A DNA stretch of 46,871 nt from an uncultured bacterium. GTDB taxonomy: Bacteria; Krumholzibacteriota; Krumholzibacteriia; LZORAL124-64-63. Shown piece by piece: positions 12,128 to 46,482 of this stretch (position 1 is its first letter; every line of letters starts with the position of its first letter). The notes beneath the pieces were generated by a model that saw only the letters and a program-made list of their open reading frames with translations, had not been told where the DNA came from and did not search any database. Location of the stretch: the NCBI GenBank assembly GCA_903859215.1, contig CAIOLW010000080.1, positions 1 through 46,871 of the forward strand, read 5' to 3'. A program made the translations under genes and the position numbers.

Positions 12128-12142
12128 CACTCGACGGCAACC

Positions 12143-15719: not shown

Positions 15720-15811
15720 GGGACACACCCCTCGTTGATTCACGGCTCAACATTCATCATTGATTTGACGTGGATGCCGAACTATCGCCCCTGACGCGAC
15801 CTCGCCGGCAA

Positions 15812-17986: not shown

Positions 17987-18106
17987 GCGCTAATAGATTG
18001 TGCAGGTGACTCTTCTGTCATTTGTCCAGTTGGCCAATGGTCTACCTCTGATTCACACCTCACATGAGTATGGAGTGCACGGAAGGCGAGAGAAGAGGAT
18101 GTCATC

Positions 18107-19460: not shown

Positions 19461-19465
19461 GCCTG
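19461..19465. repeat. Target-site duplication, left copy (GCCTG)
   Basis: GCCTG immediately before the left IS end, repeated at 22136-22140 directly after the right end. Five-base duplication is within the range usual for IS21-family elements. Confidence 0.85.
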
Positions 19466-19470
19466 TGCGT

Positions 19471-19585
19471 ATTCCGACTGAAATCGGCCACTGATTCCGA
19501 CGCAATTCGGCCACCTATTCCGATTCAAATCGGCCACCCATTCCGATCGAAACCGGCCACCGATTCCGGCGCAATTCGGCCACCC
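19471..19585 (+). repeat. Five tandem 23-bp repeats at the left IS end
   Basis: Units start at 19471, 19494, 19517, 19540 and 19563, each fitting ATTCCG-N5-A(A/T)(A/T)CGGCCAC-NN with exact 23-base spacing, about two helical turns. They match inverted copies at 22041-22132 and are best read as transposase-binding sites. Confidence 0.85.
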
Positions 19586-19673
19586 CTGGCGGGGTAGACG
19601 GCCGTCAGCGACGCAGGACACCCCAGCGGGTACCGTGTTCCTTTTCTCGCCACGCCGAGCAGAAGGAGCCGAG

Positions 19674-22453: not shown

Positions 22454-24046
22454 CTATTGGCTGCCACGCTGCCATGAAATGCCGACCAGAATGTCGTCGA
22501 ACGCCGCTCTGGCCTGCGTGTCGTAGATGTACTTCTCCAGCACATGGCTGTACATCATGGACATGACCTGGCAACGGCTGCTCTCAAGAACATTCATGGC
22601 CATTCGCCCCTTCTGCTGACGGTGCAGCACGGGGCAGACTCCGCAGTATGGCTTGAAGGCGCAGTAGTCGCAGTAGTACTGCTCGCTGATGGATGATTCC
22701 ACGATTGCTGCGGCATCGGGCGACCGTAAGATGGAACCGAGCGACTGCTGAGCAATTGCGCCGATGAAGAAATCGTCCCCGTCAATCATCCTTCCCTCGT
22801 CACAGGAGTAAACCCCGCCGTCGTGATTGTAGGTAATCTGGCCATATGCCGCACCGCACGGCGATCTTAGATCCATGAAGCCGCTTTCGTTGCCGAAGAG
22901 CTTCGTCAGGGCAAGTTCGAGATAGAAGTCATTAATGTCTGTCCCATTTCGGCGCAACTCGATGATGTATTCGATTGATGCGCACCAAAAATCGAAAAAC
23001 TCGCGCGGCGAATAGTCGATCTTGTCGGCGTTGTCGCTGGCATTGCCCAGGGGCGTCAATGGCCGCAAGCTGATCTTTCTCAGCCCTAGGCTACAATACT
23101 GGTCGATGATTGCCTTGTGTTCCGAAAGCGACCGCCGCGTCGTCGTCATCAGGGCGGAAAGCGGAATCTGGCCGTCCTTCTGGGCGAGCCACTCCGAGCG
23201 ATAGAGGTCCAGCGAGCGCACCAACTCCTCAAAGGCCCCCGGATATCCGACGCCTCGATTGGCATCGTGCAACTCCTGCGGCCCATCCAGAGAGAAGCAA
23301 ATGGAGACATTGTGCGCGATGAGATATCGCAGCTTCTCCGCCGTCACCGAGCGCGTGAAGTTGGAGATCAGGCTATACTCAATGCGCTTTCCCCGCGAGG
23401 CGGCCAATGACTCGGAGTACTCGATGATGTATTGCACCGTCGAAAAATTCAGCAAAGGCTCGCCGCCCTGAAACTCAATGATATATGAGTCCGAAGGGCT
23501 CTCGAGAATCCGGTCGACGACGACCTTGGCCGTTGCGTTATCCATGTCGCACTTTGCCGACGTTGGCGCCGAAACCTGACAATACACACACTTGAGATTG
23601 CAGTTCGACGTTACGACCACAATATGCAGGGTCGGGCCCTCCCGTAGGAATCCGAACTTGGCGCGCATCTTCTCGATGTAGGTGTCGTAATTGCGCTCGG
23701 TCAGCAATACGAAGTTCTTTTCGAGTTTGCGCTCGAGTTCAGGGCCCACCATACCGGCAGCCAGGGCCCTATACTCACCCTCGCTGAGAACACACCAGGC
23801 GCCCGTGTCGACTGAAATGAAGTGGTCGCCCTTGCTGGTGATCCAATGGCGATAATAGTTGAGGCAGGGCAGACTCGGACGGTTTCCGGCCGTTGCGATT
23901 CGCTTGCATCGCTGGCCTTGCCGAACGCGGGGCCGGCGCAGTGCGTCATTCAGGGCATTTCGAACGCTCGCTTCGGAATGGTCGGACAGCCGGGCCTGCT
24001 CTCTCACGCCCGGTTCATAAAAGTCGTCGGCAAGAGGCAACTCCAC
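22454..24046 (-). CDS. hxsB: HxsB-like radical SAM/SPASM maturase
   Basis: 530 residues from a GTG at 24046, 2 bases after the hxsD-like gene, with GGGAG 7 bases upstream. The N-terminal region (CLNYYRHWIT, TGAWCVLSEGEYRAL, FLREGPTLHIVVVTSNCN) follows the layout of His-Xaa-Ser system protein HxsB. The radical SAM cluster ligands are Cys149, Cys153 and Cys156 (CX3CX2C), and GGEP stands at 194-197. A C-terminal SPASM region has PCGA and the Cys-rich YYCDYCAFKPYCGVCPV plus a final Cys, able to hold auxiliary iron-sulfur clusters. Expected role: SAM radical chemistry on a peptide substrate, here probably the His-Xaa-Ser peptide at 35376. Last gene of the long operon, 4 bases from the convergent TIM-barrel fragment. 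Confidence 0.8.
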   Translation of the reverse strand: MELPLADDFYEPGVREQARLSDHSEASVRNALNDALRRPRVRQGQRCKRIATAGNRPSLPCLNYYRHWITSKGDHFISVDTGAWCVLSEGEYRALAAGMVGPELERKLEKNFVLLTERNYDTYIEKMRAKFGFLREGPTLHIVVVTSNCNLKCVYCQVSAPTSAKCDMDNATAKVVVDRILESPSDSYIIEFQGGEPLLNFSTVQYIIEYSESLAASRGKRIEYSLISNFTRSVTAEKLRYLIAHNVSICFSLDGPQELHDANRGVGYPGAFEELVRSLDLYRSEWLAQKDGQIPLSALMTTTRRSLSEHKAIIDQYCSLGLRKISLRPLTPLGNASDNADKIDYSPREFFDFWCASIEYIIELRRNGTDINDFYLELALTKLFGNESGFMDLRSPCGAAYGQITYNHDGGVYSCDEGRMIDGDDFFIGAIAQQSLGSILRSPDAAAIVESSISEQYYCDYCAFKPYCGVCPVLHRQQKGRMAMNVLESSRCQVMSMMYSHVLEKYIYDTQARAAFDDILVGISWQRGSQ

Positions 24047-24048
24047 GC

Positions 24049-24336
24049 CTACTCTCCCCCGCTGTAGGGAGACAGCGCCTGCTCCATGATGATGCGCCTC
24101 AGGTCTGCTGTTTGCCGTTCCCTCGTAACGAGAAACTCAGCCTCAATTAGTTCATTCAAGAACACCTGTACGGAAGCAGGCTCCTGGGAGGGCATCTTGC
24201 TTTCGAGCTCGACAACCCAATCGGTGCCGTCCTCCAGTATGCGCACCCAGTGTGTTGCCAAATATCTTTGCAGGGCCAATATGACCACTTCGCGGTCATG
24301 ACCGTCTCTGGCCAACCTGATATTGACTGCGTTCAT
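24049..24336 (-). CDS. hxsD: HxsD-like small protein of His-Xaa-Ser systems
   Basis: 95 residues, ATG at 24336 overlapping the methyltransferase stop by four bases (ATGA). The C-terminal segment FLNELIEAEFLVTRERQTADLRR, then IIMEQALSP, reproduces the (F/L)LN(D/E)(Y/L)-xLRE helix and the I-x-x-x-A-(F/L)-S ending characteristic of HxsD proteins. The N-terminal half forms a small alpha/beta unit with a DGTDWVVELES strand. HxsD has no known catalysis; a substrate- or enzyme-binding role is usually proposed. Its pairing with the HxsB-like gene strengthens both calls. Confidence 0.75.
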   Translation of the reverse strand: MNAVNIRLARDGHDREVVILALQRYLATHWVRILEDGTDWVVELESKMPSQEPASVQVFLNELIEAEFLVTRERQTADLRRIIMEQALSPYSGGE

Positions 24337-25079
24337 GCGTGATTCTCCTTGCGAGCCACGATTCTGATGCGTGTAGTGGCGTCCGGTTCGACTACGCCAT
24401 TGCTGTCGGCGTCAACAACCTCGACCGTCCTCAAGCCCACGTCTGCAAGCCCACGAACGACATCCTGTACGGCCAGCGCGGCGTGCTTGTGCTCCTCAAT
24501 GAGCGTCTTCCACTGCCCCTCTTGGAATACGTGCCAGATCATGTGCTCGACGCCCACGGAGCGCGTCACATCGAACGCAGAGAGCCGAACAAGAACCCAA
24601 TCCTCCCGCTCAATTACGGAACGATGCGCGGGCCAACATTCGCGAAGGTCGTATTCCGTAACGAAATCAAGGATGAAGTGTCCGGATGGCCTTAACGATT
24701 TCGCGACATTGCCAAATAGGGCAAACCAATCGCGGGTGTCTAACAGGTAGTTGATCGAGTCGAACAGACAAGTCGCCAAGTCCACCTGAACGGGCGGTCG
24801 GTACGTGACCATGTTCTCGTTGGCCACGGTAATGTCGCCTAGCGGTCGCAGCCTCTCCTGGGCCACTGAACACATTGCTTCACTCAGGTCACACCCAAAG
24901 ACAGTCCGGCCGTCGGCTGCCAGCTCCGCCATTAGCACGCCCGTACCGCACCCGAAGTCGCAGATGCTCTCAACGCCGTGGCGCTCCGCGAAATCTCGAG
25001 CAAAGAGCCTCGTCGGCGTGGGTAGGCCAGCGTTCAGTTCGTCATGTCGGGCTGCCGAATCACGATATGGATCCGTCAT
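24333..25079 (-). CDS. Class I SAM-dependent methyltransferase
   Basis: 248 residues from the ATG at 25079, which overlaps the preceding stop by four bases (ATGA) and has GGAG 7 bases upstream; a start at 25100 would lie well inside the upstream gene. Motif I is DFGCGTG at residues 41-47, followed by an acidic second strand end (FGCDLSEAM) and the post-motif DLATCLFDSINYL; the C-terminal half matches small-molecule or peptide methyltransferases of the UbiE/COQ5-like fold. No metal-binding motif. It may methylate the peptide product or a small partner; substrate unknown. Confidence 0.8.
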   Translation of the reverse strand: MTDPYRDSAARHDELNAGLPTPTRLFARDFAERHGVESICDFGCGTGVLMAELAADGRTVFGCDLSEAMCSVAQERLRPLGDITVANENMVTYRPPVQVDLATCLFDSINYLLDTRDWFALFGNVAKSLRPSGHFILDFVTEYDLRECWPAHRSVIEREDWVLVRLSAFDVTRSVGVEHMIWHVFQEGQWKTLIEEHKHAALAVQDVVRGLADVGLRTVEVVDADSNGVVEPDATTRIRIVARKENHA

Positions 25080-26773
25080 TTGTCCGCTCCGCGTCTCCAT
25101 AGATACTGAAATGACATATGGCCTTCGAGAAGGTCACTTGTTCGGTGCAATCCGCCGAGGCACAGCGCTATTTCGGAGACGATTGCCTTGCGTTCACTCG
25201 CAACCACCTCAAGCCTTTTGTCCCGGTAAGCGCGCCTGGGGCTCCAATCTCCCATACTAACGACGGCGCCCTCCGCTTCCAACGCCTGGCATGCCGGGGT
25301 GCCTGTGATGGGCTGATATGCGTGCACCTCGACCGAGTGGATGTGATCGAGATTGCGCGCGATGAAGTCCAGGGTGGCAGCGAAGTCCGAATCACTCTCC
25401 CCCGGATAGCCGACTATGACGAAAAGGTGGTTGCTGATACCGGCCAGAGCCGATTCGCGGAGAATCTCGGTTCGAGACTCCGGGGGCAAACCGCCCCCCT
25501 TACGCATTTTTAGCAGCACGTTACTACTGCCGCTTTCAAACCCCCAAGCCACGGCGCGGCATCCAATCCGATGTAGGCCTGCAAAGCGACCACTGCGCCG
25601 AAGAGCGTGGTCGAATCGCAGTTGCGCCGCCCAGCGAAGCTCGAGAGAGCCACACAGTTTTGCCGCTCCATTGAGGAGGCTCGGTGGCAAGGCATAGTCC
25701 AAGAACTGTAGGTGCCTTACTTCGTCGCCGAGATCTAGCTCGCACAATCGCGCCGCAAAGTCGGACGGGCTGGCGTGGCGGAATGGTTGGACTTGCTCAC
25801 ACGCGATAGCACAGAACGCACATCGCGACCAATAGCATCGAGATGTCGCCAACACGCCGGCCACTTTGATCGGGCTAAGATATTGCGCCATGTCGCTGTA
25901 AATCTTGGACTTGGCACCAACGCCGGCGAGCCCGTGATGCAGCCACAAGTCGGGTAACGATTCGCACGTCTCGCGGTAGAAATGACGTTCACAGCCGTTC
26001 GCGGCCCAATGGGCAAGATTGCCGCTGAGCGGCCCAAGCACAACGTTGTCGCAAACGTCGAATATCTGTGCCGGCATCCGCAGCGCGAGAACGGACTCCA
26101 GATAGCGGCCACCCACGGCGACTCTCGTGTGCAGGTTATGACGCAGCCAATGAGCCAGTGCCAGGCCAGGCAACAGCTGTTCTTCACATCGAATTGCCAC
26201 AAATGCCTGGACAAAGTCGGTTCGTTCCAGGAATTGAACCAAATACCTGTCAAACAACCTCTGCAGGCCGCCGTCGGCGCGCGATGCTTCGGCCAGGATG
26301 CTCTCGGCATCCCCCGCCGCAATGGGATGCAGAAACGCTTCCAGCCAAAGCGAAAGGCTGCCGTCAATTTGCTTCACGCGATAGTCCAGGAACCCGTTGA
26401 TGATTGCGGCACCATTGACATAGTCCGCATGGGTCAGGTTCTGAGCGCTGCCCGAGAAAAGGGCGACGGCCTGGCGGCGCAACTGATCGAGCCCCTCGAG
26501 CGATTCCGTGACGAAACCGCCGCCACCAATTCGGCCCAGCAGTTGGCGTTCATCCATGAAGCTGGCGCGACCAACGCACGACAACAGTTGGTCCGCGTCC
26601 GTGATCGGGGTGTTGTCTTCGATGATGGCTCGATACAAAACGGCATTGAGGTCGAGGGCGACTGCATCTACCCCCTGCGCGCACAATGAGGCGCACCATT
26701 GGAACGTTTCCGGGTACGGCATCCCAGGCTCCAAGAAGGGCGCCTCGATAATGGCTGTTCTCTTGCCTTTCAT
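25076..26773 (-). CDS. Radical SAM protein with long B12-binding-like N-terminus (CX4CX2C)
   Basis: 565 residues; ATG at 26773 overlaps the previous stop by four bases. The first 300 residues look like a B12-binding/Rossmann-type region (AIIEAPFLEPGMPYPETF, VDAVALDLN, VAVGGRYLE), without an obvious DxHxxG ligand motif. The radical SAM cysteines are Cys313, Cys318 and Cys321 in SRCYWSRCAFC, a CX4CX2C spacing rather than the classic CX3CX2C; other B12-type radical SAM proteins show variant spacing. Later motifs GFESGSSNVLLKM and VIVGYPGESDSDF fit the radical SAM barrel. Substrate and reaction unknown. Confidence 0.75.
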   Translation of the reverse strand: MKGKRTAIIEAPFLEPGMPYPETFQWCASLCAQGVDAVALDLNAVLYRAIIEDNTPITDADQLLSCVGRASFMDERQLLGRIGGGGFVTESLEGLDQLRRQAVALFSGSAQNLTHADYVNGAAIINGFLDYRVKQIDGSLSLWLEAFLHPIAAGDAESILAEASRADGGLQRLFDRYLVQFLERTDFVQAFVAIRCEEQLLPGLALAHWLRHNLHTRVAVGGRYLESVLALRMPAQIFDVCDNVVLGPLSGNLAHWAANGCERHFYRETCESLPDLWLHHGLAGVGAKSKIYSDMAQYLSPIKVAGVLATSRCYWSRCAFCAIACEQVQPFRHASPSDFAARLCELDLGDEVRHLQFLDYALPPSLLNGAAKLCGSLELRWAAQLRFDHALRRSGRFAGLHRIGCRAVAWGFESGSSNVLLKMRKGGGLPPESRTEILRESALAGISNHLFVIVGYPGESDSDFAATLDFIARNLDHIHSVEVHAYQPITGTPACQALEAEGAVVSMGDWSPRRAYRDKRLEVVASERKAIVSEIALCLGGLHRTSDLLEGHMSFQYLWRRGADK

Positions 26774-28137
26774 TCAAGTGATTCCAGATACTGAGGGTCC
26801 CAGAAGAACTTGCAGAGCGCGGATGTTTCGACGCGATCGCCGCCGCACAGCCGGAACGTGCCGCCCTCCACGACACACCTGTGCAAATCGTTCAGCTCCG
26901 CGACTTCATTGGCAAACACCGACAAGAAGTCGCGCTGGAAGTGGCCCGCGAACTCGCCAAGTTCAACGGTGCCATGATTCGCCAACCGATCCAAGACAAA
27001 TACACGCTGGCGATCCATGGCACCAATTAGGTCGAACACATATTGCCTGTCGTTGGGATCGAAGATTTCCGCTCTCTTGCGGTTCTCGTAACGCATGAAG
27101 TCCTGCGCATAGGAGTAGGCAGCATGCCCAAAGCCCATGATGCTGTTGCGGGCCGCCCTGTCAGGCTGGGTTCTGTATCCCATGAGGTCATATCGTGCCA
27201 GATGTTCCGCCGAGGAAAAGAACTGATATTCCGTGTAATCGTCACCGACGGTGTCTATCCACCCACATGCAGAAACGGTCTCACGCACAGCTTGAAGAAC
27301 TTCGGGGATATAGACAGTGTTGTACTCATCCAGCACATTTGAGACCTGCGCGCCCTCTTGGGTCAGATGCCGTTTCAGGTGGCGAAAGATGTATATTGTC
27401 ACGCAGTCCACGCCGCTTTCAATCAGGCGGCGGATCGCGCTGGTAACACCCTGGGTCGACTCACCCGGCAGCCCGATCATGAGGTCGACATTGATCTCCC
27501 GGAATCCTAAGGCCTTACTATGGTTGATTGTGGCACTGATGACAGAGATGTCAACGGGATCTCGCCTCACATTGGCAAGCACCGTCGGCTCTAGGCTCTG
27601 GACGCCAAAGCTCAGTCGGTTGATGCCAAATTCCCGCAATGCTCGGAGTTTGTGCACATCTGTAGTCAAGAAGGACTGCTCGACACATTTTTCCGCATAT
27701 TCGTCAAACGGCACCCCGTTAATGCGCTGAAGCAGGATGCGCATCTGCTCGACCGTCATCAGGCTTGGTGTACCACCGCCGATGTACAGGGCCCTGAAGG
27801 GCGTATTTTCCGCGACTGGGAGGAAGTAGTCAAATTCGTCGCACAGGTATTGCATATAGGAATCCGGCACAACGGCCGCATCGGGCACCTGGCTGTAGTA
27901 CATGCAGTAGCTGCATCGCTGGCCTTTACAGTACGGAATGTGGAAGTAGAGCGAGACGTTGTCCCGGAATCGCTCATCACACAGTATTTCCCTCCACGCA
28001 TTACGGACCACAGCTGCGGACTCAAACGCCAACCTGGGCGCGAACGACTGCACAGGGTTGAAGAGATTGTATTTGAGCGTGATCTCTCGAAACGCTTCTA
28101 TTTTTTGTGCGGCCGTCATGTCTGCAAGTCGGCGCAT
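26770..28137 (-). CDS. HemN/HemW-like radical SAM protein (CX4CX2C)
   Basis: 455 residues. ATG at 28137 has AAAGGA 5 bases upstream; stop overlaps the next start by four bases. The segment YFHIPYCKGQRCSYCMYY (Cys70, Cys75, Cys78) and the following ALYIGGGTPSLM, RLSFGVQSLEP and NVDLMIGLPGES blocks are typical of the coproporphyrinogen-oxidase-like radical SAM group, but there is one extra residue between the first two cysteines (CX4 instead of CX3). HemN-like proteins bind two SAM molecules or act as haem chaperones or methyltransferases. In this operon it is more likely a peptide- or cofactor-modifying relative than a haem enzyme. Confidence 0.8.
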   Translation of the reverse strand: MRRLADMTAAQKIEAFREITLKYNLFNPVQSFAPRLAFESAAVVRNAWREILCDERFRDNVSLYFHIPYCKGQRCSYCMYYSQVPDAAVVPDSYMQYLCDEFDYFLPVAENTPFRALYIGGGTPSLMTVEQMRILLQRINGVPFDEYAEKCVEQSFLTTDVHKLRALREFGINRLSFGVQSLEPTVLANVRRDPVDISVISATINHSKALGFREINVDLMIGLPGESTQGVTSAIRRLIESGVDCVTIYIFRHLKRHLTQEGAQVSNVLDEYNTVYIPEVLQAVRETVSACGWIDTVGDDYTEYQFFSSAEHLARYDLMGYRTQPDRAARNSIMGFGHAAYSYAQDFMRYENRKRAEIFDPNDRQYVFDLIGAMDRQRVFVLDRLANHGTVELGEFAGHFQRDFLSVFANEVAELNDLHRCVVEGGTFRLCGGDRVETSALCKFFWDPQYLESLE

Positions 28138-28146
28138 ACTCGTCCT

Positions 28147-29055
28147 TTATCGGAAAACCATTAGGCGTTGATGGGCGTCCTGCTCAATGTACCCAAGAAT
28201 GCGTTCTCCTTTGCGGCACTCTAGCGCGCCGCGGCTCACCGTCAGGTTATTGGACGACCAGAAGAAATGGTCGGGAGCATCGGCATGCGGCTCCCAGAGC
28301 CATCGCCGGCTGTATGCCAGGTTGTATTCCAAAACCGACCCATCGGGTCGAAAGTGATGCTCCTGCAAGGCGACAACCACGCCTCGAACGATCATAATCG
28401 GAACACACATTTCAGCGCGCACGGCTTCGAGCATCGACTTCATATCACGTGCACTCAGTTCCCGCTCCATCATGAGGCTGATGTCACGAGTATGTGTACA
28501 CGTAGCTGAACAAGGAAAGTAGTCGAAGAACAGTGTCCGACCCCAAAACAGGTACGCGAGCTTGTTGCCCCGATAGTCATACGAAGACTGCAATGGCGTG
28601 TTGTCTAGCCACACCTTCAGCCAATCGTGGTGTGCGCCGATTTCCTGATATGATGCCACACAACAATCCGGGTAGCCGAGAACCTTGCCAATCCCGTCGA
28701 TTTCGGCGGGATCATCCTCCATGGCCATGGCCGCCACCGCAGTGGCGCTGTCTCGCGCCACCATCATCGTGTACGGCAAGTGCTCTTCCTGGTCGAACGG
28801 AACCGGAATGGTATAGCTGTCGCCAAGGGCGCTGGTGAACGATGTCTTCTGGCGAAACCCGGAGCGCACACATGCCAGACCTAGACAGCTGAGACCCGAC
28901 TTCAGCGGCGCCTCGCATTCGTCATGAATGCTCAATCGCACAACGTTCTTGCTGCCCGAGAGTAGCGCCACAATCTCCAGGAAGTTCCTGAAGTTGAAGT
29001 CCGGAACCGCTTCCAGGAGTCTGGCAAGCGTATTGACGCGACTCAAATCGACCAC
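28147..29055 (-). CDS. YPxCC/PCSxxC-motif protein, short form
   Basis: 302 residues from a GTG at 29055; a TTG at 29046, overlapping the upstream stop by four bases, is an alternative start. Family not firmly recognised; the pattern resembles DUF483-type proteins. It has GYPDCCVASY at residues 128-137 and FPCSATC at 180-186, four conserved cysteines that could bind a metal or iron-sulfur cluster or act in thiol chemistry. Around them are charged and aromatic helices. The C-terminal domain of the next upstream gene (29043-30644) shows the same motifs in the same order. The two genes overlap by 13 bases, so the products probably work as a pair. Confidence 0.65.
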   Translation of the reverse strand: MVDLSRVNTLARLLEAVPDFNFRNFLEIVALLSGSKNVVRLSIHDECEAPLKSGLSCLGLACVRSGFRQKTSFTSALGDSYTIPVPFDQEEHLPYTMMVARDSATAVAAMAMEDDPAEIDGIGKVLGYPDCCVASYQEIGAHHDWLKVWLDNTPLQSSYDYRGNKLAYLFWGRTLFFDYFPCSATCTHTRDISLMMERELSARDMKSMLEAVRAEMCVPIMIVRGVVVALQEHHFRPDGSVLEYNLAYSRRWLWEPHADAPDHFFWSSNNLTVSRGALECRKGERILGYIEQDAHQRLMVFR

Positions 29056-30644
29056 CCCCCGAAGGGCATGAGCCGGATGTTGGTGTCTCTCAGTACCTTG
29101 AAGAACTTACCGCCCCGGTACAACGCGACCTCTCCAGGTCCGCGTGCAGCCAGAGCGTCAGATGCACTGATGTCGCGGCCCAGGCTATTGTATGTCGTCA
29201 TCCGCACAGAGTCGCCGGAATACGTGATGCAATTGTCGGTGACGCGTGCGCCGACAAAAATGTACACACCCCGATACTCGGTGTAGAGAGCTGGAGATGC
29301 CATCACGGTCGCCACTTCGCGGCCCCACTCCGGCATTACGTCACATATCACCTGGAAGTACTCCCGCGCCTGCCTTACAGCCTCGACACATACATAGGAA
29401 CATGGATAGTAGCTCACGATCTGATAGTGGAAATACCGTGCTGCTGTATTGAGAAGGAACGGCCACGGGCCTGATTCCAATGTCTGGTCGGCGATCAGAG
29501 GCGTCAGGTCACCCTGATGTCGAATTGCGCGCGGTAGGTTTCGTTCGAAGGAGGCACGACAACACGCCGGATATGACAATGCTTCGCCAAATCGCTGATC
29601 GCTATCGTGTTCCGCCGCGGCGGATTGGGCAGCTTGGCGGGCAGTCGTTGCAATATACAACATTCGTTCGTTTGAATACGCGTCGCCGTCGAGAGCCGGC
29701 TTATAGAGATTGCTCCATCCGCCCTTACCGCGGTCGACGCTGTATCGGTGTTGTTCGCAGTTAAGTCTGTATGAGAGGCCGTGAGCGGACAGCATCGCTC
29801 CAATCTTTCGCGCCCCGCGCTGCGCGATCGTGGTTCGCATTGAGGACTTGACGCCGGTGGCCACAAGTGCCAATTCCACAAGTTCTAGCCCATTCAGAAT
29901 GTTGGCGGCGCGCACCTCACTCACAAGCGCGCGTGCCGAGACAATCGAGGCACTGGAAGCATTGGGCCGCCTATCCTCATCCGGCACTTTGACGACTGCA
30001 GGATTGCGATCTTCAAGTGTTGCTGTATTATCGCAATGTAGAGGCTTGCCAGAAGTGTCAACGATCAAGTGCAAATCGGAATACAGCAAGAGGTATGCGC
30101 GATAGACACTCTCCGCGCTTGCACGGCTAGAGCCAAGCGCATCAACAACGAGGTGCGCCTGGGTGCGTTCGAATTCTTCCTCTACACTCACGACACCGAT
30201 ACAACGATACCGAAGGCGACGCGCCAGTTCGAAGATCCCATAGGCGCGCCCGTTCAAGTAGTGCGACTTGTCAATTAAGTTTCCCGCATACACCGGGTCT
30301 ATCGACACCAAGAGAGTCTTGTCTCTGACGCTAGACGCGGCTCCCACGACCGCGTTGTCCACGAACTGCAATGGAAGGTGGTGTTGTTGGTGGCCGCAGC
30401 TAAGCAGGGGCGCTCCGCTCAGCTGCAGCTGTGACACACCCAATTCGTCAATCAACGCCCCGGCGGCACGAAGTGATGCTCTTAGCTGATTGAGCGGCGC
30501 CGACTGCCACTTTTCCAGAACAATATGCACTGCGGCGACGGCAATCATCTGGCGAGAACGATGGCGCGCCGCAGCCAGCTGTCTGCGATCGTCAGCCAAG
30601 CGGCCACAAATATCGACCCGCAATGTGCTTTCGTCTTGAAACAT
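29043..30644 (-). CDS. YPxCC/PCSxxC-motif protein, long form
   Basis: 533 residues from the ATG at 30644, with GGAG 8 bases upstream; a GTG at 30653 is weaker. The N-terminal 230 residues form a domain I do not recognise, with strands such as TLLVSIDPVYAGNLIDKS and RYRCIGVVSVEEE. The C-terminal 200 residues carry SYPACCRASFE (Cys361, Cys362) and YYPCSYVC (Cys415, Cys419), the same cysteine set as in the smaller neighbour, so this is a two-domain version. Possible roles are metal-dependent peptide modification or substrate recognition for the radical SAM enzymes; no catalytic motif proves either. Confidence 0.65.
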   Translation of the reverse strand: MFQDESTLRVDICGRLADDRRQLAAARHRSRQMIAVAAVHIVLEKWQSAPLNQLRASLRAAGALIDELGVSQLQLSGAPLLSCGHQQHHLPLQFVDNAVVGAASSVRDKTLLVSIDPVYAGNLIDKSHYLNGRAYGIFELARRLRYRCIGVVSVEEEFERTQAHLVVDALGSSRASAESVYRAYLLLYSDLHLIVDTSGKPLHCDNTATLEDRNPAVVKVPDEDRRPNASSASIVSARALVSEVRAANILNGLELVELALVATGVKSSMRTTIAQRGARKIGAMLSAHGLSYRLNCEQHRYSVDRGKGGWSNLYKPALDGDAYSNERMLYIATTARQAAQSAAAEHDSDQRFGEALSYPACCRASFERNLPRAIRHQGDLTPLIADQTLESGPWPFLLNTAARYFHYQIVSYYPCSYVCVEAVRQAREYFQVICDVMPEWGREVATVMASPALYTEYRGVYIFVGARVTDNCITYSGDSVRMTTYNSLGRDISASDALAARGPGEVALYRGGKFFKVLRDTNIRLMPFGGWSI

Positions 30645-30664
30645 GCGGTTCACTCCGGGGCGTC

Positions 30665-31633
30665 CTAGATTCCGCAGAATAGTTTCACGACGTCCGGATC
30701 CTGCAGGGGCACGAACTCCGCGTCCCCAAACTGGTCAACATATTCCAGCCATGGACCCTCGCAGACCTTATCCATGAGACACCGTACACAGCTTGCGGAC
30801 TTGTGTTTTCCGAGCGGCCTCAAGACATCCCAACTCTTCAGGTCGGGGCTACCCGGTGTATGGATGGAAGCGCGGGATGCCTGTCGCTGAATCGAGTAGC
30901 GAATGTCCTGCGAGCACAACCAATGCGACGGCGCTTGAGGAAATGTGCAGTAGGGTACAGTTTCCAACATGACGTTCATCGTCTTCTCGCGCGCGACCTC
31001 AAGCACACGATATAGCTCCGGCTCCAAATCCGAGTATTTAGGAACTACGGCGGCAAATACTTCGCCTGGGAACTCCTCTGCATGCGGGAATGCAAGCACA
31101 GCATTCGTGACGCCTGAGTTCACAAGCGCCTCAAATGTCTCGGCAAGGCATGAAATGTTGCGTCGGGAAATTACCACCTTCCCGACAACCCGCACGTGGT
31201 CGAATTCCAGCAAGTTGGCGATCGCCTGCATCGTCTCAGAATAGCTGCCTCGGCGACGCGTTATGTCGTCGTGCACACAGGCATCGGGGCCGTGCACAGC
31301 CACGACGAACTGGACGGGGCGCGAGCCGCGCAGGAATGACACCGTCGCCTTATCGCTCAGCGCGCGCCCGTTTGTCTGTACCGTGACAGCCATCCCCTTT
31401 TTCAGGCCATACTCAACCAACGCGGCGAAATCAGGTCGTATCGTGACCTCGCCGCCGGTAAGGACAATGCCCTCTGATCCTGTAGAGGCCGCCACATCGA
31501 TACAAGCCATTATGGTCGCGGTGTCGTCATCGACACACAGCCCATCGTCTACGAGTTTGGCTTTCGATGGCGCAATCACACAGTGCGTGCATTGGTTGTT
31601 GCACGTAAAGCCGACCTTAATGTCCGTGAACAT
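30665..31633 (-). CDS. Radical SAM protein, possibly an HxsC-like maturase
   Basis: 322 residues; ATG at 31633 lies 12 bases after the protease gene. Cys11, Cys15 and Cys18 (FTCNNQCTHC) give the standard CX3CX2C cluster site; LTGGEVTIRPDF is the GGE motif, and VQTNGRAL and GSYSETMQAIANLLEF follow the barrel order also seen in HxsC. The C-terminus has CVRCLMDKVCEGPW, a three-Cys set that could bind an auxiliary cluster. Since an HxsB-like and an HxsD-like protein are encoded in the same operon, this is the best candidate for the missing second maturase; overall similarity to HxsC is not strong enough to name it. Confidence 0.75.
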   Translation of the reverse strand: MFTDIKVGFTCNNQCTHCVIAPSKAKLVDDGLCVDDDTATIMACIDVAASTGSEGIVLTGGEVTIRPDFAALVEYGLKKGMAVTVQTNGRALSDKATVSFLRGSRPVQFVVAVHGPDACVHDDITRRRGSYSETMQAIANLLEFDHVRVVGKVVISRRNISCLAETFEALVNSGVTNAVLAFPHAEEFPGEVFAAVVPKYSDLEPELYRVLEVAREKTMNVMLETVPYCTFPQAPSHWLCSQDIRYSIQRQASRASIHTPGSPDLKSWDVLRPLGKHKSASCVRCLMDKVCEGPWLEYVDQFGDAEFVPLQDPDVVKLFCGI

Positions 31634-31645
31634 GGCCCAACCTGC

Positions 31646-32242
31646 CTAGTGTTTCAGTGCTGAGTCCAACGCGTCCAGGGTCACATTTCTTGGAACCAGC
31701 GTTTCCCGAGCGGCGCGGAGGAGCGTTCCTTCTTCCTCCGGATGCACGAGATGGCGAAGTCCTGCGGACCGTGCCACGGCCAATTTGTCGTCGATGTGAT
31801 CGACTGCATACAGCCCAAATCGGCCGTCGCGTACAGGCCTGATATTCCCCCAAGCGAACATACCTGGCGGCCATGGCCGCCCGGCATGGTAGCAGATCAG
31901 GCCCAGCAGCATTGAAAGCCCTAGAGAAGCCCCCGTCAGGGAGAATCGCTTATCTTGCAGGAACTCGCGATCTTCGGCGTGCAATTCCAGGCTCAAGTTC
32001 GACATCGTTCCCGTCATTTTCGCATGGCATTCCAGGGCCGTCCAATATGCATCTTGCAATTCCGGGTCCGCGGCGAAGTGTTCAGTGTTCGACGCAATTC
32101 CACAACCGGGGGACCACTGCCACCGGGTCACAATCCCTCGAAGTTCACTGTGGTTGGTTGAGGTCGCGACAAACAGTCCCACGAATGAGCCCGGATGGCG
32201 AAGCTGCAAGGCGTTGCCCCCACCTGCGTCAACGTATTGCAA
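31646..32242 (-). CDS. Stand-alone Lon-type (S16) protease domain
   Basis: 198 residues if a TTG at 32242 is used, preceded by GGAGAG about 10 bases upstream; no good ATG exists and the start is uncertain (the frame is open to 32317, and a TTG at 32209 is also possible). The segment LTGASLGLSMLLGL, AWGNIRPV and DDKLAVARSAGLRHLVHP aligns in order with the Lon proteolytic domain (GPSAGIA, TGEI, KEKLLAA), placing the catalytic Ser at about 106 and the Lys at about 153. There is no AAA+ ATPase domain. In this operon a leader-cleaving or precursor-processing protease is the simplest guess. It overlaps the upstream radical SAM gene by 14 bases. Confidence 0.65.
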   Translation of the reverse strand: MQYVDAGGGNALQLRHPGSFVGLFVATSTNHSELRGIVTRWQWSPGCGIASNTEHFAADPELQDAYWTALECHAKMTGTMSNLSLELHAEDREFLQDKRFSLTGASLGLSMLLGLICYHAGRPWPPGMFAWGNIRPVRDGRFGLYAVDHIDDKLAVARSAGLRHLVHPEEEGTLLRAARETLVPRNVTLDALDSALKH

Positions 32243-33215
32243 GGTAGTCAATCTCTCCGGCGTCGAGCTGTACCGTGGCCTCCGGCGCGGAACACCCGCC
32301 CATGCAGCGGCCAACATATGGGCAATCCCGGCACTGCTGGGGAAGTCGCTGCACGCCCGTCAGCCGCTTGTATTCAAGATCTTGTTCGATGTCAGCGCGG
32401 TCCAGGGATCGAGATATCTGAGTGCGGCAGGAATAGCAGGAGACCAGTTCGTCATCGGACGTCACCGTCAGACTGCAGAAGGGCCCGCAATCCTCTCCAC
32501 GGCCCATGAATACGCGCTCCCCTAGTTCAATTGGATCAACCGCGCAGAACGGCGTGGCAAGACCCAGTTTATGCACGCTGGCCGGGTACCGATCCATGAG
32601 CAGCGACAGTTCCTCCGCAAGCGCCTGCATGTCCTCACGCAGTACAGGACGGCGTCCACTGAGAGTCATTTCCGCCCGAAGCGGGGACCAGCTGAGGCCT
32701 GGCACATTATCGCACAAGCGGACGAAGCTCTCGAGCCGGCCGATGTTTTCCCGCAGGACGACGGTAAGAATCTGAACTTCTGCCCCCGTGGCGAGACATT
32801 GGCCAATGGCACAGATCTTCTTGCGGAAAGCGCCTGGGACACCCGTGATCTGGTCAACGGTCGACTCGTCTGCGGCTGGAAGACTGATTTTGAACATGTC
32901 CACAGAAGATCCGAGGTCCTCGTATTTGCCGGCCGGGGCCAGGCCGTTGGAATTGATTATCACATAGCGCCCGAGTTCCTGAGCAAAGCGGGTTACCACG
33001 CCCAGTCCCGGATGGAGTAAGGGTTCACCGCCCGTGAATCTCACGGTCCCGATCCCATGCTCGGCAGCCCAACTGATCCGACGCTGAATGGCCGATACAC
33101 TCAAGTGTTGGTGAGACTTCCGAGTCCCATACTCTTGATGGCAGAAATTGCAGCGGGAATTGCAGCTCTCTGTGATTTCGAATTTCAATTCAAAATTGGC
33201 GGGGAACGAGGTCAT
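32229..33215 (-). CDS. Radical SAM/SPASM-type protein
   Basis: 328 residues; ATG at 33215 overlaps the previous stop by four bases (ATGA). Cys18, Cys22 and Cys25 (ESCNSRCNFC) bind the SAM cluster, and RFTGGEPLLHP is the GGEP motif. The C-terminal third has SCYSC and the Cys-rich CRDCPYVGRCMGGC, which fits a SPASM or twitch domain with auxiliary clusters as in peptide-modifying maturases such as AlbA-like and sactisynthase-like proteins. Radical chemistry on a peptide is the expected role. Confidence 0.82.
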   Translation of the reverse strand: MTSFPANFELKFEITESCNSRCNFCHQEYGTRKSHQHLSVSAIQRRISWAAEHGIGTVRFTGGEPLLHPGLGVVTRFAQELGRYVIINSNGLAPAGKYEDLGSSVDMFKISLPAADESTVDQITGVPGAFRKKICAIGQCLATGAEVQILTVVLRENIGRLESFVRLCDNVPGLSWSPLRAEMTLSGRRPVLREDMQALAEELSLLMDRYPASVHKLGLATPFCAVDPIELGERVFMGRGEDCGPFCSLTVTSDDELVSCYSCRTQISRSLDRADIEQDLEYKRLTGVQRLPQQCRDCPYVGRCMGGCSAPEATVQLDAGEIDYLAIR

Positions 33216-34195
33216 GGCTCCACACCCAGCGGACGCTCAATCCTAATGGCGCCGCCCTCATTTACTGCGCGGACGGTGCGGCCGCCCGGCAAGGACAGGG
33301 TCACATCTTCTTCACCCAACCAACTTTCAATCCACATGTCGCAATCATCGCAGATTGTGTGGGTCAGGTCCATTGTCTTGTGGCGTGCGCGGAATGCCGC
33401 AAGCTCCGAGCCAGAAAGCGCACCCAACAGAGTTGGCTCGACTGTGGTCTCCTGCATACACACACGGCTCGTGATGCAGCATGGCGCCATGCGACCGTCG
33501 GACATGATCGCCAAATAGGAGAACGGCTGCCTACAGGGGCGTCGACGCTTCAGGTGATCCGAGATTCCCAAGTCGTTCATGTAGCGAATGCTGTTCGGTC
33601 CGAACTCGACACCCTGGTAAAGGTAGATTGACGAGACCCTGTCGAGCCATTTCTCGACAAACGCCAGCACTTTCGGGTTTTCGACGCTGTCTCCGCGCTC
33701 AAGCACTGTGGTAACGACAATTCTTGCCGACCCTGCGTGTGCCCGCTGCAGCATGAGATCAAGATTCGCGACCTGTGCCCGCGCACGGTCGGTGCCACTC
33801 TGGTTTGGGGCGGCACATCCATCAGGGCCGGCCATGTCGAGAGACACCGCAACCGTGTCGCAACTTGCTAATATCACATGCATCAGCTCGGGCGAAGCCG
33901 GATGCAAGCGCGTCGAAAGCCATGGGCGCACATTGCGTCGGCGGCAATACTCCAACATGTCGACAATGCGAGGATGAAGGAGACTCTCCCCCTCGTAATT
34001 TAGAGTCAGCGAAATGGGATGACCGCACGAAGTGATTTCGTCAACAACGCGCGTGAACAGGTCATAGTCCATGTGAGCCCGCAACCGGGTATGCTGCGGC
34101 GCCTGCCAATTGACACGGTCGCAGTACTCGCACGAAAAGTGGCAGGCCGAAGACAACTCCAGGGCAATTGTCTGGGGAATACATACTTCAATCAT
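33212..34195 (-). CDS. Radical SAM protein with C-terminal cysteine cluster
   Basis: 327 residues from the ATG at 34195, which overlaps the stop of the upstream gene by 8 bases; the frame continues to 34285 inside that gene. Cys18, Cys22 and Cys25 (SACHFSCEYC) form the CX3CX2C site and TLNYEGESLLHP replaces the usual GGEP block with EGES. A later MSDGRMAPCCITSRVC and TICDDCDMW supply several cysteines for auxiliary cluster binding, as in SPASM proteins that modify peptides or form cofactors. Reaction unknown. Confidence 0.8.
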   Translation of the reverse strand: MIEVCIPQTIALELSSACHFSCEYCDRVNWQAPQHTRLRAHMDYDLFTRVVDEITSCGHPISLTLNYEGESLLHPRIVDMLEYCRRRNVRPWLSTRLHPASPELMHVILASCDTVAVSLDMAGPDGCAAPNQSGTDRARAQVANLDLMLQRAHAGSARIVVTTVLERGDSVENPKVLAFVEKWLDRVSSIYLYQGVEFGPNSIRYMNDLGISDHLKRRRPCRQPFSYLAIMSDGRMAPCCITSRVCMQETTVEPTLLGALSGSELAAFRARHKTMDLTHTICDDCDMWIESWLGEEDVTLSLPGGRTVRAVNEGGAIRIERPLGVEP

Positions 34196-35231
34196 TGCTG
34201 CATTGCTTTCTGAGATCTCCAACGTATCGCGCGAGGCTCGCCACTTCCACGTTGCCGGCGCGGCCCAGCGCTGCATCGAGAGCACACAGGAGAGACTCGC
34301 GGTCGCGCGGACTTAGGCCACGGAGATGCCCAGCGGGATCGTGTTTCTCATAGCACCCGTCAAGGCGACAGACGGCAAGCTCGTCAACGCCCAGCTCGCG
34401 CGCGGCGTCCACGAATCGCGGGATTTCTCTTAAATTGTCGGCCATGGCAACGAACTGAATTGAGACGTACCATCGCGCCATATCCGGCCTGGACAAGCTG
34501 CGGTCCCTATAATCAAGGACCATGCGTATTTGTTTGAGAATGTCACGCAGCCCCAATGGCCCGCTGCGCAATCGCGCAAACGTGTCCGGTTCAAGGCTGT
34601 CGATCGAGATGTGCAGATTCACTCTTGGGAGGCGAGACATTGCGTCGAGGATTTCGGGCGTCAACAAAGATCCGTTCGTCGTGACACTCATCGCCACGGA
34701 CGGGACCGCGTTGCTGTTAATGAACTTCAGCAACCCAGCGTCCAAGAAGGGCTCACCTCCGGAGACGTGCACGTGTGCCGCAAGGCATGCCAAATCGTAG
34801 AACAGATCGTGGGCGTGACGTTCATGCAGGCGGTCATGCCGCAGTCTTAGTGAGCACAATTGACACGAGTAGTTGCACGAATAGAGAAGGTCGGCACTGA
34901 TTGTGACCGGCAGGGCAGCCAGGACTGTCTTGCCGCGCACGAACTCGTTGCGGTTGCGTTCGAGGTTTTCACAGGCGTCACGGCTCAATATGTCTGTTTC
35001 GAACTGGTCATAGTATGCGGTGCCGATATGTCTTGCTTCGCACTCACGGCAGGCATCAGGAAGTCTGCCGTCCACGTGTGCCTGTCTCAGTGCGACAAAC
35101 TGAGGGGAGTTCCAGGACTCGCGCAAGGACAAGGATAGGTCCGGAGCCATGAAGGCGGATCCCAATGGGCACTCGGGGCCATAGCTTTCAGGCAGCAGCA
35201 TGAGGCTGGCCCACGGTACGGGACAAGTCAA
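34188..35231 (-). CDS. Radical SAM protein with cysteine-rich N-terminal region
   Basis: 347 residues from a TTG at 35231, chosen for TTTAGGAG standing 8 bases upstream; the frame is open to 35303 but without such a site. Residues 1-70 contain CPVPWASLML, YGPECPLGS and ACRECEARH, a SPASM-like cysteine set placed before, not after, the barrel. The core site is Cys119, Cys123 and Cys126 (YSCNYSCQLC), and HVSGGEPFLD is the GGEP motif. First enzyme gene after the peptide gene, 144 bases downstream of it; overlaps the next gene by 8 bases. Confidence 0.8.
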   Translation of the reverse strand: MTCPVPWASLMLLPESYGPECPLGSAFMAPDLSLSLRESWNSPQFVALRQAHVDGRLPDACRECEARHIGTAYYDQFETDILSRDACENLERNRNEFVRGKTVLAALPVTISADLLYSCNYSCQLCSLRLRHDRLHERHAHDLFYDLACLAAHVHVSGGEPFLDAGLLKFINSNAVPSVAMSVTTNGSLLTPEILDAMSRLPRVNLHISIDSLEPDTFARLRSGPLGLRDILKQIRMVLDYRDRSLSRPDMARWYVSIQFVAMADNLREIPRFVDAARELGVDELAVCRLDGCYEKHDPAGHLRGLSPRDRESLLCALDAALGRAGNVEVASLARYVGDLRKQCSND

Positions 35232-35323
35232 CTGCGACGCTCCTAAACCCGACCTGGGCACCAACGCGATGCCTCGACAGAACTGAGGGAATGTCGAAAC
35301 CACCGCTCGTCATGCAGCGCAAC

Positions 35324-35349
35324 GCGCCGGCCGCAATGGCGGCCAGCGC
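35324..35349 (-). other. Strong hairpin between peptide gene and enzyme operon
   Basis: GCGCCGGCCGC and GCGGCCAGCGC around the four-base loop AATG make an 11-bp stem; in the minus-strand transcript the single odd pair is G-U. It lies 26 bases downstream of the peptide stop and has no T-run, so it is more likely an RNA-processing or stability element, or a partial attenuator, that lets more peptide than enzyme be made. Confidence 0.55.
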
Positions 35350-35375
35350 GGCCCAACACTCGCGGACAGTAGTGT

Positions 35376-35546
35376 CTAGTGGTTTGTATTTGAGGAGTGT
35401 TTTGACGACGAGGCATGGCTCTGATGGGACGCTGCAAATTCGTCGCACGAGGCCTCGTCGCTCTTAACCTTTTCTGCAATCTTGCGCAGGATCTCATCCT
35501 TGGCTTTTTCCAGATCATCGGCGGGATTGTGCTTGTTGTCGGACAT
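35376..35546 (-). CDS. Candidate precursor peptide with His-Xaa-Ser tail (56 residues)
   Basis: Start ATG at 35546 has GAGGAG 6 bases upstream; stop TAG at 35376. The first 37 residues form an acidic and basic helix (DDLEKAKDEILRKIAEKVKS) typical of RiPP leader peptides. Residue 34 is Cys. The final 17 residues are SHQSHASSSKHSSNTNH, with His-Xaa-Ser triads at 41-43, 44-46 and 50-52, a composition unlike any other protein in the window. Radical SAM maturases of the Hxs type are named for substrates with His-Xaa-Ser repeats, though classical HxsA proteins are larger. This short version, directly upstream of HxsB/HxsD-like and six further radical SAM genes, is probably the substrate. No protease site or product is proven. 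Confidence 0.75.
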   Translation of the reverse strand: MSDNKHNPADDLEKAKDEILRKIAEKVKSDEASCDEFAASHQSHASSSKHSSNTNH

Positions 35547-36083: not shown

Positions 36084-37937
36084 TCAATCCCATGTTGTCG
36101 GCCCGGCCGGCAGGGCCAACGCCAGGTATTGACCGCTTTCACATGCCGCGAGCCCTGCAGTGGACAGGTCATCGAGGGCCGCGGCGATGACGGCGGAATC
36201 GACTCCAAGCCGCGTCCCCATTTCCGACGCCCCCAGGGAAGACTCCATGCACATTCGATACGCAGCGTCGGTTGCTCCATGCAATACCGTCTCCCTGAAC
36301 GCGCCGTCACGTCGATCTTCGATCACGGAAAACCCGAAGCCCTGGCGCGCCACGAGGCTGGGGGGTTCTTGCGCCGTCCAGGCCGCCTGCCACCGGGCGA
36401 TGGCCTCGCGGAGCGCCTCCGCCGCAGGAGTCACGACTCGGAGGCTCGGCGCCTCCCAATAGAATGCGATGTCCTCGATGGACTCCGCAGCCAGCGGATA
36501 GGCATGTCCATATGCGGGACGGGGCCGAAGCTCCGCTGGCCGCAGGCGAGCGTCACTGAAGTAACTGCTGTAGCGATCTATCCAGAGCGTGGACACGCCC
36601 GTTGGCGGCGGCAAGTGCAAGAGCCGCGGCACAAGATCTGTCATGTGCTGCAGGTGTCTGTCTTCCTGACCCGGGATGCCAAGGATGAGGTTCCAGCCGA
36701 CCTGCGCCCCATAGTAGGCGGACCATTTCAGAAACCTGACATTCGTCAACAGGTCGCTGCCCTTGTTCATCAGTCCGAGAAGCTCCGTGTTCAAACTCTC
36801 GATTCCCGGCTGCAACTGGCAAATCCCGGCAGAAACCAGGTCCCTGATGTCGCGACGCTGGAGGCTTGGCCGCACTGCGTAAAAGATCGTGTAGTCCGCT
36901 TCAGCCGCCGCCAGAAGCGGCGCCAGACGCGCCGCGCGACTGCGATCGAGAACCCGATCTGTAGCTTCGAAGTTCAGCTCCCGCGTCGCGCGCGACAGTT
37001 CCTCCAGTTCACTCACGGTGCGCTCTGGAGTCTTGGTTCTGTAGGCTTTGTCGTCCGCGTTCAGACCGCAGAACGAGCAGGGGCGCCGCGCGGCCCAATA
37101 GCAGCCGCGGGAACTCTCGAACGGAATCTGAATCGTACGGTCACCGATGACTCGCGCACGCCCCAGCCGATGCACCGTGTTCAAGTAGTCGCTATAGTCG
37201 GGTGTAGGGAGGTCTTCCAAGTTCACCGGTGGTGAAAACGCATTGATGGTCGACCCGTCAGGAGCGCGGCTGACGATCCCGGGACAATCAACGCAGGAAT
37301 CGCCGGACAAGATGCCCTGTACCAGCGCTGGAAAGGCATCGTCGGCCTCGCCGGTAGCGACATGATCGATCCACTCAAACAACTCGAGGCACTTCCGGCC
37401 GATGTCACCGAAGAAGTTCGCGCCACCCATCACGATCACGACATGCGGATGCCGCGACTTGATCGCCCGAGACAAGGCCAGGCTGGCCAACTGCTGTTCA
37501 AACGTCGAAGTGAAACCGATGACCCGATAGCGGCCCCAATCCGTGTTCTTGAGCCACGCCGCGAGCATCGCCGGCATTACGACATCTCTCAGCCCCTGTG
37601 CGTCTTGTTCACCCAGACCGAAAGACGCGAGCACTTCATGGACATCCGGATAGGTACGGGCTACATCCCCGATGGCGCTATCATGTTCGAATGCCGCTCT
37701 TCCCCAGAGCCATTCGCCGAGGAGACACTCCGTTCGCACCGTCGCTAGGTTGTCGTAAAGGTCAGCACCCAGCTCTGCGGCGAGCTCGAGATTCAAATAG
37801 TGAACGTCAGAGCGGATCCCTGCGCGGGCCAGGGACGCCTTCAAGAGCCCGCATTGAATGGACGGGCGATCCGCGTAGGCGAACGGGAGGTTTACCAGGG
37901 CGACAGGAGCTGGGGGCATTTCGTCCACGATATTCAT
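36084..37937 (-). CDS. B12-binding radical SAM RiPP-maturation protein (CX7CX2C type)
   Basis: 617 residues; ATG at 37937, weak ribosome-binding site. Residues 1-230 are a B12-binding-like domain (VALVNLPFAYADRPSIQCGLLKA-type start, then IVMGGANFFGDIG). The radical SAM site is FESSRGCYWAARRPCSFCG with Cys279, Cys287 and Cys290 (CX7CX2C), followed by YRTKTPERTVSELEEL, the characteristic block of RiPP maturation radical SAM protein 1 (rSAM_ocin_1), often described as C-methyltransferases of bacteriocin-like peptides. The C-terminal 130 residues may bind peptide. It lies 537 bases upstream of the peptide gene on the same strand, so it probably belongs to the same pathway but with a separate transcript. 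Confidence 0.85.
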   Translation of the reverse strand: MNIVDEMPPAPVALVNLPFAYADRPSIQCGLLKASLARAGIRSDVHYLNLELAAELGADLYDNLATVRTECLLGEWLWGRAAFEHDSAIGDVARTYPDVHEVLASFGLGEQDAQGLRDVVMPAMLAAWLKNTDWGRYRVIGFTSTFEQQLASLALSRAIKSRHPHVVIVMGGANFFGDIGRKCLELFEWIDHVATGEADDAFPALVQGILSGDSCVDCPGIVSRAPDGSTINAFSPPVNLEDLPTPDYSDYLNTVHRLGRARVIGDRTIQIPFESSRGCYWAARRPCSFCGLNADDKAYRTKTPERTVSELEELSRATRELNFEATDRVLDRSRAARLAPLLAAAEADYTIFYAVRPSLQRRDIRDLVSAGICQLQPGIESLNTELLGLMNKGSDLLTNVRFLKWSAYYGAQVGWNLILGIPGQEDRHLQHMTDLVPRLLHLPPPTGVSTLWIDRYSSYFSDARLRPAELRPRPAYGHAYPLAAESIEDIAFYWEAPSLRVVTPAAEALREAIARWQAAWTAQEPPSLVARQGFGFSVIEDRRDGAFRETVLHGATDAAYRMCMESSLGASEMGTRLGVDSAVIAAALDDLSTAGLAACESGQYLALALPAGPTTWD

Positions 37938-38991: not shown

Positions 38992-39483
38992 GTGCAACCC
39001 AAGTCCATCAAACCAAGGGTCAACGTGCACGTGGGATACGAGTGGGCCGGCCCGGGCTCCGCACGCGATGACACTCACTGGACCCAACTGCGCGACTTGA
39101 TAAAGCGATCATCGCCAACATCGGTGGACGTCCGCCCGCTACGAATTCGCGGCACTCAGGGACAGGATTTGCTCACGACTATTCGGCGCCGTGTTGCCCA
39201 CGCCGACATTCTTGTGTTCGACATTACCAGCGTCAAGAATGGTTCGTTCAACTTCAACGTCGTGCTTGAGGTTGGTATGGCCATCGGGTGCAGCCATTTC
39301 AGAAAGAACCGGGTGTTTATCTTGGCCGGCCCGGGCGTTAAGCCAGGTAGCGATCTCGCGGGCATTTTGTACCTGAAGTACTCATTGCGCGGTGATCGCC
39401 TCGTGTTTGTGGACGAAGATGGGTTTAATCACGGCCTAGCGGCAGCCATTCGGGCTTGTGCCAAGGACAAGAGGCCTGCGTAG
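38992..39483 (+). CDS. Nucleotide-binding TIR/nucleoside-deoxyribosyltransferase-like protein
   Basis: 163 residues from a GTG at 38992 (AGGAGG 10 bases upstream). The core VAHADILVFDITS and NFNVVLEVGMAIG resembles the Rossmann-like fold of nucleoside deoxyribosyltransferases and of TIR-like effector domains, with a conserved Asp and Glu that could bind nucleotide or cleave NAD. It precedes a TPR protein, a common pairing of effector and sensor in bacterial conflict systems. The molecular target is not visible. Confidence 0.55.
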   Translation: MQPKSIKPRVNVHVGYEWAGPGSARDDTHWTQLRDLIKRSSPTSVDVRPLRIRGTQGQDLLTTIRRRVAHADILVFDITSVKNGSFNFNVVLEVGMAIGCSHFRKNRVFILAGPGVKPGSDLAGILYLKYSLRGDRLVFVDEDGFNHGLAAAIRACAKDKRPA

Positions 39484-45895: not shown

Positions 45896-46482
45896 TAGGG
45901 ACCTCACTGGATTAATCAATGGCAGAGAGACAAGTAACGGTATCTGTTGGGCGCGCGCGCTATTAGGCCTCCGGCTTCACAATAGATCGTGGCGTGTTTT
46001 TACTTAATATGGAATTGTCGCACAAGCCGTGAGCTTGTTGCAAAGTTTTCTGTGCTTTTCTCGCAGTACGATTATCAGAGGCTGGCCCCAGAGGGTCGCC
46101 ATCAGCCCCCCCCCACCCGGAATTATGGTCATTTTGTCGTGCGCGAATTGAAGGCGCAAATCACACCGCGTCGATCTTGATTGGCACACATGTTGCGCCA
46201 GTCCGAGTCGCCTTTGACACAATGGGCGCGCGGACGAGAGTCAGCCGTACGGCGCGCAATCCGCCGCGGGCCCATCCGAATGCGGGTCAGTCGTCCTGGC
46301 CGGCCCCGGGTGGCCCATGCTAGGCGTCCGCGCGCAGCGGCACGCGAAGCACGAAGCCGAACCATGAGCCCCATTGACCGGGCTCAAGCACCGCGATAGA
46401 CTCAACATCATGGTCAGCACAGGCTACCTGCGGTTTTCGTCGGCAATCAGATCTCAGGAATCTGCCGCAATAGGAGTGACTC
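45896..46482. other. Divergent intergenic region with a nine-base C run
   Basis: About 590 bases between the large protein and the second acidic-protein gene. No gene with ribosome-binding site found. A run of nine C (46106-46114) and AT-rich stretches near 46000-46080 suggest promoter DNA; a homopolymer like this can slip and alter expression. Confidence 0.5.

Follow-up and report, generated by a model that had tools for sequence, protein, structure and literature searches.

The window, which comprises all 46,871 nucleotides of contig CAIOLW010000080.1 (GCA_903859215.1; positions 1-46,871, forward strand) from an uncultured Krumholzibacteriota bacterium, contains a compact operon spanning some 12.8 kb in which the gene for a small peptide comes first, followed on the same strand by 12 genes: seven radical-SAM proteins (HxsB among them), two DUF483-like proteins, a Lon-like protein, a methyltransferase and an HxsD homologue. 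A further radical-SAM gene precedes the operon. In 5' to 3' order, the features are:

36084..37937, minus strand: RiPP maturation radical SAM C-methyltransferase (TIGR03975, 520 bits, cut-off 281.85)
35376..35546, minus strand: candidate precursor peptide of 56 aa (frame, ribosome-binding site, HxS tail)
35280..35375, minus strand: intergenic leader from peptide stop to rSAM1, containing a strong GC-rich hairpin, a possible expression-ratio element
34188..35303, minus strand: rSAM1, radical SAM with an N-terminal Cys/twitch region (its true start is probably TTG at 35231, after AGGAG)
33212..34285, minus strand: rSAM2, radical SAM/SPASM (possible start ATG at 34195)
32229..33215, minus strand: rSAM3, MoaA/PqqE-like radical SAM (4-nt overlap with the rSAM2 stop)
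31646..32317, minus strand: Lon-like (S16) protease-domain protein, a possible leader peptidase (weak profile and pairwise similarity; start uncertain; syntenic partner in locus L015)
30665..31633, minus strand: HxsC4/HxsC-like radical SAM (47% identical to its L015 counterpart)
29043..30653, minus strand: DUF483-like protein a (motif YPxCC ... YPCSxxC)
28147..29055, minus strand: DUF483-like protein b (motif YPDCC ... FPCSxxC)
26770..28137, minus strand: HemN/HutW-like radical SAM (C-x4-C-x2-C spacing; also in L015)
25076..26773, minus strand: radical SAM of the B12-dependent methyltransferase type (SAM-domain similarity; no B12-binding Pfam match)
24333..25100, minus strand: class I SAM methyltransferase (nearest NCBIfam model daptide_MTase)
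24049..24336, minus strand: HxsD homologue
22454..24046, minus strand: HxsB radical SAM/SPASM maturase (TIGR03978; HxsB tree)

The peptide, MSDNKHNPADDLEKAKDEILRKIAEKVKSDEASCDEFAASHQSHASSSKHSSNTNH, ends at a TAG stop (minus strand, 35546-35376) and consists of a charged helical leader (residues 1-39) and a His/Ser tail of 17 residues, SHQSHASSSKHSSNTNH. The sequence bears out the HQS, HAS and HSS triads of the original prediction, as well as the strong ribosome-binding site: a Shine-Dalgarno sequence, AGGAG, lies 6 nt 5' of the ATG, and an alternative in-frame ATG immediately after the AGGAG would yield 58 aa at a poorer spacing. Read in triplets the tail is HQS, HAS, SSK, HSS, NTN and a final H, which places each tail His and all three triads in a single register. 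In 1.48 Mb of sequence (a background that takes in the window itself and Hxs loci), 5,027 ORFs are 40-80 aa long, and just two of them have at least three HxS triads in register within a stretch of 18 residues: the window peptide and a genuine short HxsA in another locus, L068. Three in-register triads were reached by a fraction of 0.0008 of shuffles of the whole peptide and 0.015 of shuffles of the tail alone; part of the HxS signal is thus due to composition. The tail is of low complexity and its repeat is interrupted; the GC3 of the frame is 0.64, compared with 0.62-0.73 in neighbouring genes.

As a small gene with a leader and a distinct core beside maturases, the peptide gene has the general form of a RiPP precursor. 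It scores below the cut-off of the HxsA model (TIGR03979; 12.8 bits, E 0.088, cut-off 121.65) and is not matched at E 0.1 by the models for HxsA2 (NF038296), HxsA3 (NF038309) and HxsA4 (NF038313), which do match short precursors at other loci, nor by the NHLP/Os1348 leader model NF038399. Its triads do not form a contiguous His-Xaa-Ser repeat, and it has neither a signal peptide nor a hydrophobic stretch. Searches of its own genome, of IMG/VR and of the metagenome-assembled genome (MAG) that contains L015 found no homologue.

From rSAM1 to HxsB, the longest frames of neighbouring genes either overlap or leave gaps of no more than 12 nt. The last of them encodes a true HxsB, which scores 395.6 bits against TIGR03978 (cut-off 370). 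The HxsC-like protein is matched near full length by the HxsC4 model (NF038332) at 109 bits with a cut-off of 500, and by the HxsC model (TIGR03977) at 70.1 bits with a cut-off of 267.9; the HxsD homologue is likewise matched near full length by TIGR03976, at 28.7 bits (E 1.3e-6) with a cut-off of 50. The peptide had been described as lying upstream of HxsB- and HxsD-like genes, which is right as to direction, but about 11 kb separate it from both genes, which close the operon downstream, and three other radical-SAM genes come first. The hairpin between the peptide gene and rSAM1 (minimum free energy -48.2 kcal/mol, z -2.9, for positions 35280-35400) has no T run, and a terminator search in this gap found none; the structure could reduce expression of the enzymes relative to the peptide.

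The Lon-like assignment of the protein encoded at 31646-32317 is a weak one. The protein has no Pfam match, Lon_C (PF05362) included; hhalign comparison with two Lon domains encoded in this genome gave a probability of 33% (E 4e-4); and its AlphaFold model (pLDDT 34) is unusable. Pairwise similarity is mixed for the window protein, shuffles being as good in 2/1000 and 203/1000 cases, and clear for the L015 fragment (1/1000 and 0/1000). The DUF483-like proteins (28147-30653) retain YPxCC and (F/Y)PCSxxC-type motifs; a fold search with DUF483b, for which the AlphaFold model is of moderate confidence (61.7), returned nothing below E 0.001, and a search of IMG/VR returned three weak viral matches.

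Genome-wide scanning by HxsB alignment yielded 79 loci, with which the window can be compared. Most contain precursors with contiguous HGS/HSS repeats, and many HxsB loci bear precursors of 76-140 aa; those of the HxsA2 type at plasmid loci are about 90-100 aa long and have signal-peptide-like N-termini. At one locus (L013:3383-3697), a 61-aa hypothetical protein annotated 5' of hxsB resembles an HxsA2 precursor whose start has been placed too far downstream; extending the frame gives it a signal-peptide-like N-terminus. Descriptions of short Hxs precursors thus already exist, both at these loci and in the curated NCBIfam families HxsA2, HxsA3 and HxsA4 (model lengths 96, 81 and 93 positions; precursors of about 80-96 aa), contrary to the premise on which a new RiPP class had been suggested as possible, and the suggestion lacks support for that reason. 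The window resembles these systems in its true HxsB, its adjoining HxsD homologue, its HxsC4-like radical SAM and its short peptide with C-terminal HxS triads. It differs from them in that the triads number three and are interrupted, instead of the four to more than 20, mostly contiguous, that are usual in the loci that were read; that the peptide has no signal or hydrophobic stretch and is encoded about 11 kb from hxsB; that the peptide and the HxsC and HxsD homologues all fall below family cut-offs; and that at least five further radical-SAM proteins, the DUF483 pair, the methyltransferase and the Lon-like protein are present. Because of the interrupted triads, the missing signal stretch, the distance to hxsB and the scores below cut-off, we do not file the operon as a standard Hxs system; judged by sequence, it is a divergent, enzyme-rich Hxs variant with a true HxsB.

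The best of the 79 loci, L015 (CAJWYZ010000017.1), belongs to an uncultured Marinimicrobia MAG and contains nine genes in the same order as the window, from Lon-like to HxsB, at 33-51% identity; other genes follow its HxsB. Its contig stops inside the Lon-like gene, short of the positions of the peptide and rSAM1-3. Neither rSAM1, rSAM3 nor the peptide was found elsewhere in this MAG, which may be incomplete, and the 5' third of the window operon is thus without a confirmed relative. The head of the operon is visible in locus L047 (JAENYK010000013.1), from a Halothermothrix MAG, which shares with the window HxsB, an HxsD homologue, an HxsC4-like protein, DUF483, a HemN-like protein and B12-type radical SAMs, of which it has two. 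At the head of the L047 operon are two peptides in tandem, 96 and 99 aa long (L047:566-1180), both of them Os1348/NHLP RiPP precursors by NF038399 (60.6 and 67.1 bits, cut-off 40), whose tails, YHSSSHVNHTDDSHGDASW and GHSDLHTSHDNDHNSSW, are irregular like that of the window peptide and have mostly Ser, Asn or Asp two positions after His. Differences from the window are the NHLP/Os1348 leaders, a second HxsB copy, M50 daptide-type and M16 proteases instead of a Lon-like protein, and a glycosyltransferase. In the HxsB tree the window and L015 proteins group with support of 100 and are joined to the two L047 copies at 86, all nested in a larger, mainly archaeal HxsB group (99). Where the head of the operon can be seen, the nearest HxsB relatives thus have short precursors with His/Ser tails in that position, their leader being of another type.

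DUF483-like proteins occur as a tandem pair in the window and L015 and singly in L047, in every case within the HxsB operon; among 398 genomes of the Halothermothrix phylum, L047 alone has one. The genomes of four other loci with DUF483 (L016, L017, L036 and L056) show neither an HxS peptide nor an evident Hxs operon close to it and were set aside. A Myxococcota locus with HxsB, an HxsC-like protein and DUF483 together (L042) was dropped because it has no recognisable precursor and its HxsB lies elsewhere in the tree. In this locus and its extended form (L131, reverse complement 15586-19902), a very long frame adjoining HxsB fuses two radical-SAM domains with DUF483, at 1,064 aa in L042 and 1,438 aa in the extended locus, and no precursor is visible.

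Searches with HxsB and DUF483b of 80 genomes of the host phylum found nothing, nor did a search with rSAM1 of a genome set spanning the same phylum group, which suggests that the operon was acquired horizontally. A scan of 84,980 genomes with patterns derived from the one rSAM1 sequence found no relatives, and the HxsC-like and HxsB pair had no match in IMG/VR. Just past HxsB, at the 3' end of the operon, lie an IS21-type transposase and an adjacent helper-ATPase-like frame (19635-22009, plus strand). Possible defence genes flank the operon at 38992-39483 (plus strand), 43124-45919 (minus strand) and 8789-13054, with features that include a CAP12-PCTIR TIR domain, a short DS11-like segment, a helicase-nuclease and PD-(D/E)XK proteins; the Hxs genes themselves were rejected as a defence system, their similarity being of the generic viperin/radical-SAM kind.

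The peptide might be a RiPP precursor without being a substrate of the Hxs enzymes, if its main maturase were the upstream TIGR03975 C-methyltransferase, rSAM1-3 or both, and if the HxsB/HxsD/HxsC-like module acted elsewhere and the triads were coincidental. With the radical SAM C-methyltransferase RiPP systems the window shares a TIGR03975 protein, a true RiPP maturase encoded 537 nt upstream on the same strand. Its gene (36084-37937) has no recognisable precursor of its own and is probably a separate unit, which sets the operon apart from those systems; the enzyme may or may not act on the window peptide. The genes nearest the peptide are rSAM1-3, of which rSAM1 and rSAM3 are unseen in the L015 MAG. 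Moreover, a precursor with an HxS motif is known beside radical-SAM enzymes unrelated to HxsB and HxsC (PMC9062424), a case in which that paper allows for coincidence, so that HxS triads by themselves do not prove an Hxs substrate; the window, however, has HxsB and HxsD homologues within the operon. Coincidence is also at odds with triads that are in register and rare, and a separate module with the single run of overlapping or closely spaced genes from rSAM1 to HxsB. Against a module that acts elsewhere, the operon contains no other substrate candidate and the rest of the genome no gene with three contiguous triads: a genome-wide pattern of three contiguous HxS codon triplets, outside which irregular triads fall, matched one place, HPS-repeat DNA on contig C157, which was rejected as a substrate gene because a sensor-kinase frame occupies the opposite strand. 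(The window peptide is missed by a DNA pattern that requires two adjoining triads, since its first Ser is coded AGC and not TCN.) On balance we consider this explanation unlikely, though deserving of some weight.

An origin of the frame by chance, or as a relic, in the leader of a radical-SAM operon whose real substrate is encoded elsewhere would fit the failure to find a peptide homologue, the low-complexity Ser/His tail and the strong structured RNA immediately downstream, but is improbable given the Shine-Dalgarno spacing, the gene-like GC3, the rarity of the tail and the precursors that occupy the same operon position in L047. The His-rich C-terminus right before a strong hairpin would also suit a small regulatory or metal-sensing leader peptide that attenuates the operon and is no substrate; the hairpin has no terminator-type T run, 56 aa with a long helical leader are unlike classical attenuation peptides, and the context is one of Hxs genes, which makes attenuation the most doubtful of these explanations.

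Most likely, the peptide is the precursor from which a divergent Hxs-type operon, rich in enzymes, makes a radical-SAM RiPP or a peptide-derived cofactor. This part of the original prediction is well supported by the tail, by the operon context (a true HxsB, an HxsD homologue, an HxsC-like protein and no other plausible precursor), by synteny with L015 and by the L047 precursors at the operon head, even though no homologue of the peptide turned up. From family knowledge and gene order, we infer that HxsD, a small protein, would present the leader (residues 1-39) to the maturases; that the His/Ser triads of the tail would be modified by HxsB and the HxsC-like enzyme; that further changes may be made by rSAM1-3, the HemN-like and B12-type radical SAMs, the methyltransferase and the Cys-rich DUF483 pair; and that the leader may be taken off by the Lon-like protein. 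As no transporter or signal peptide is evident in the operon, the product is more likely cytosolic than secreted. A bolder proposal, which we advance tentatively and rate below an even chance, is that the clade of the window, L015 and L047 represents a separate Hxs-derived pathway that uses at least seven radical-SAM enzymes and DUF483 proteins to turn a short cytosolic His/Ser peptide into a heavily modified peptide or peptide-derived cofactor, with chemistry new to RiPPs.

In a limited literature search, Hxs systems were mentioned in passing only, and we know of no report on the chemistry of HxsB or HxsC. A substrate with three triads, encoded alongside a true HxsB, would make this chemistry easier to test than HxsA proteins with their many repeats. 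The operon further ties two Cys-motif proteins of DUF483, a family with no assigned function, to radical-SAM peptide maturation, both here and in the more distantly related L047 lineage.
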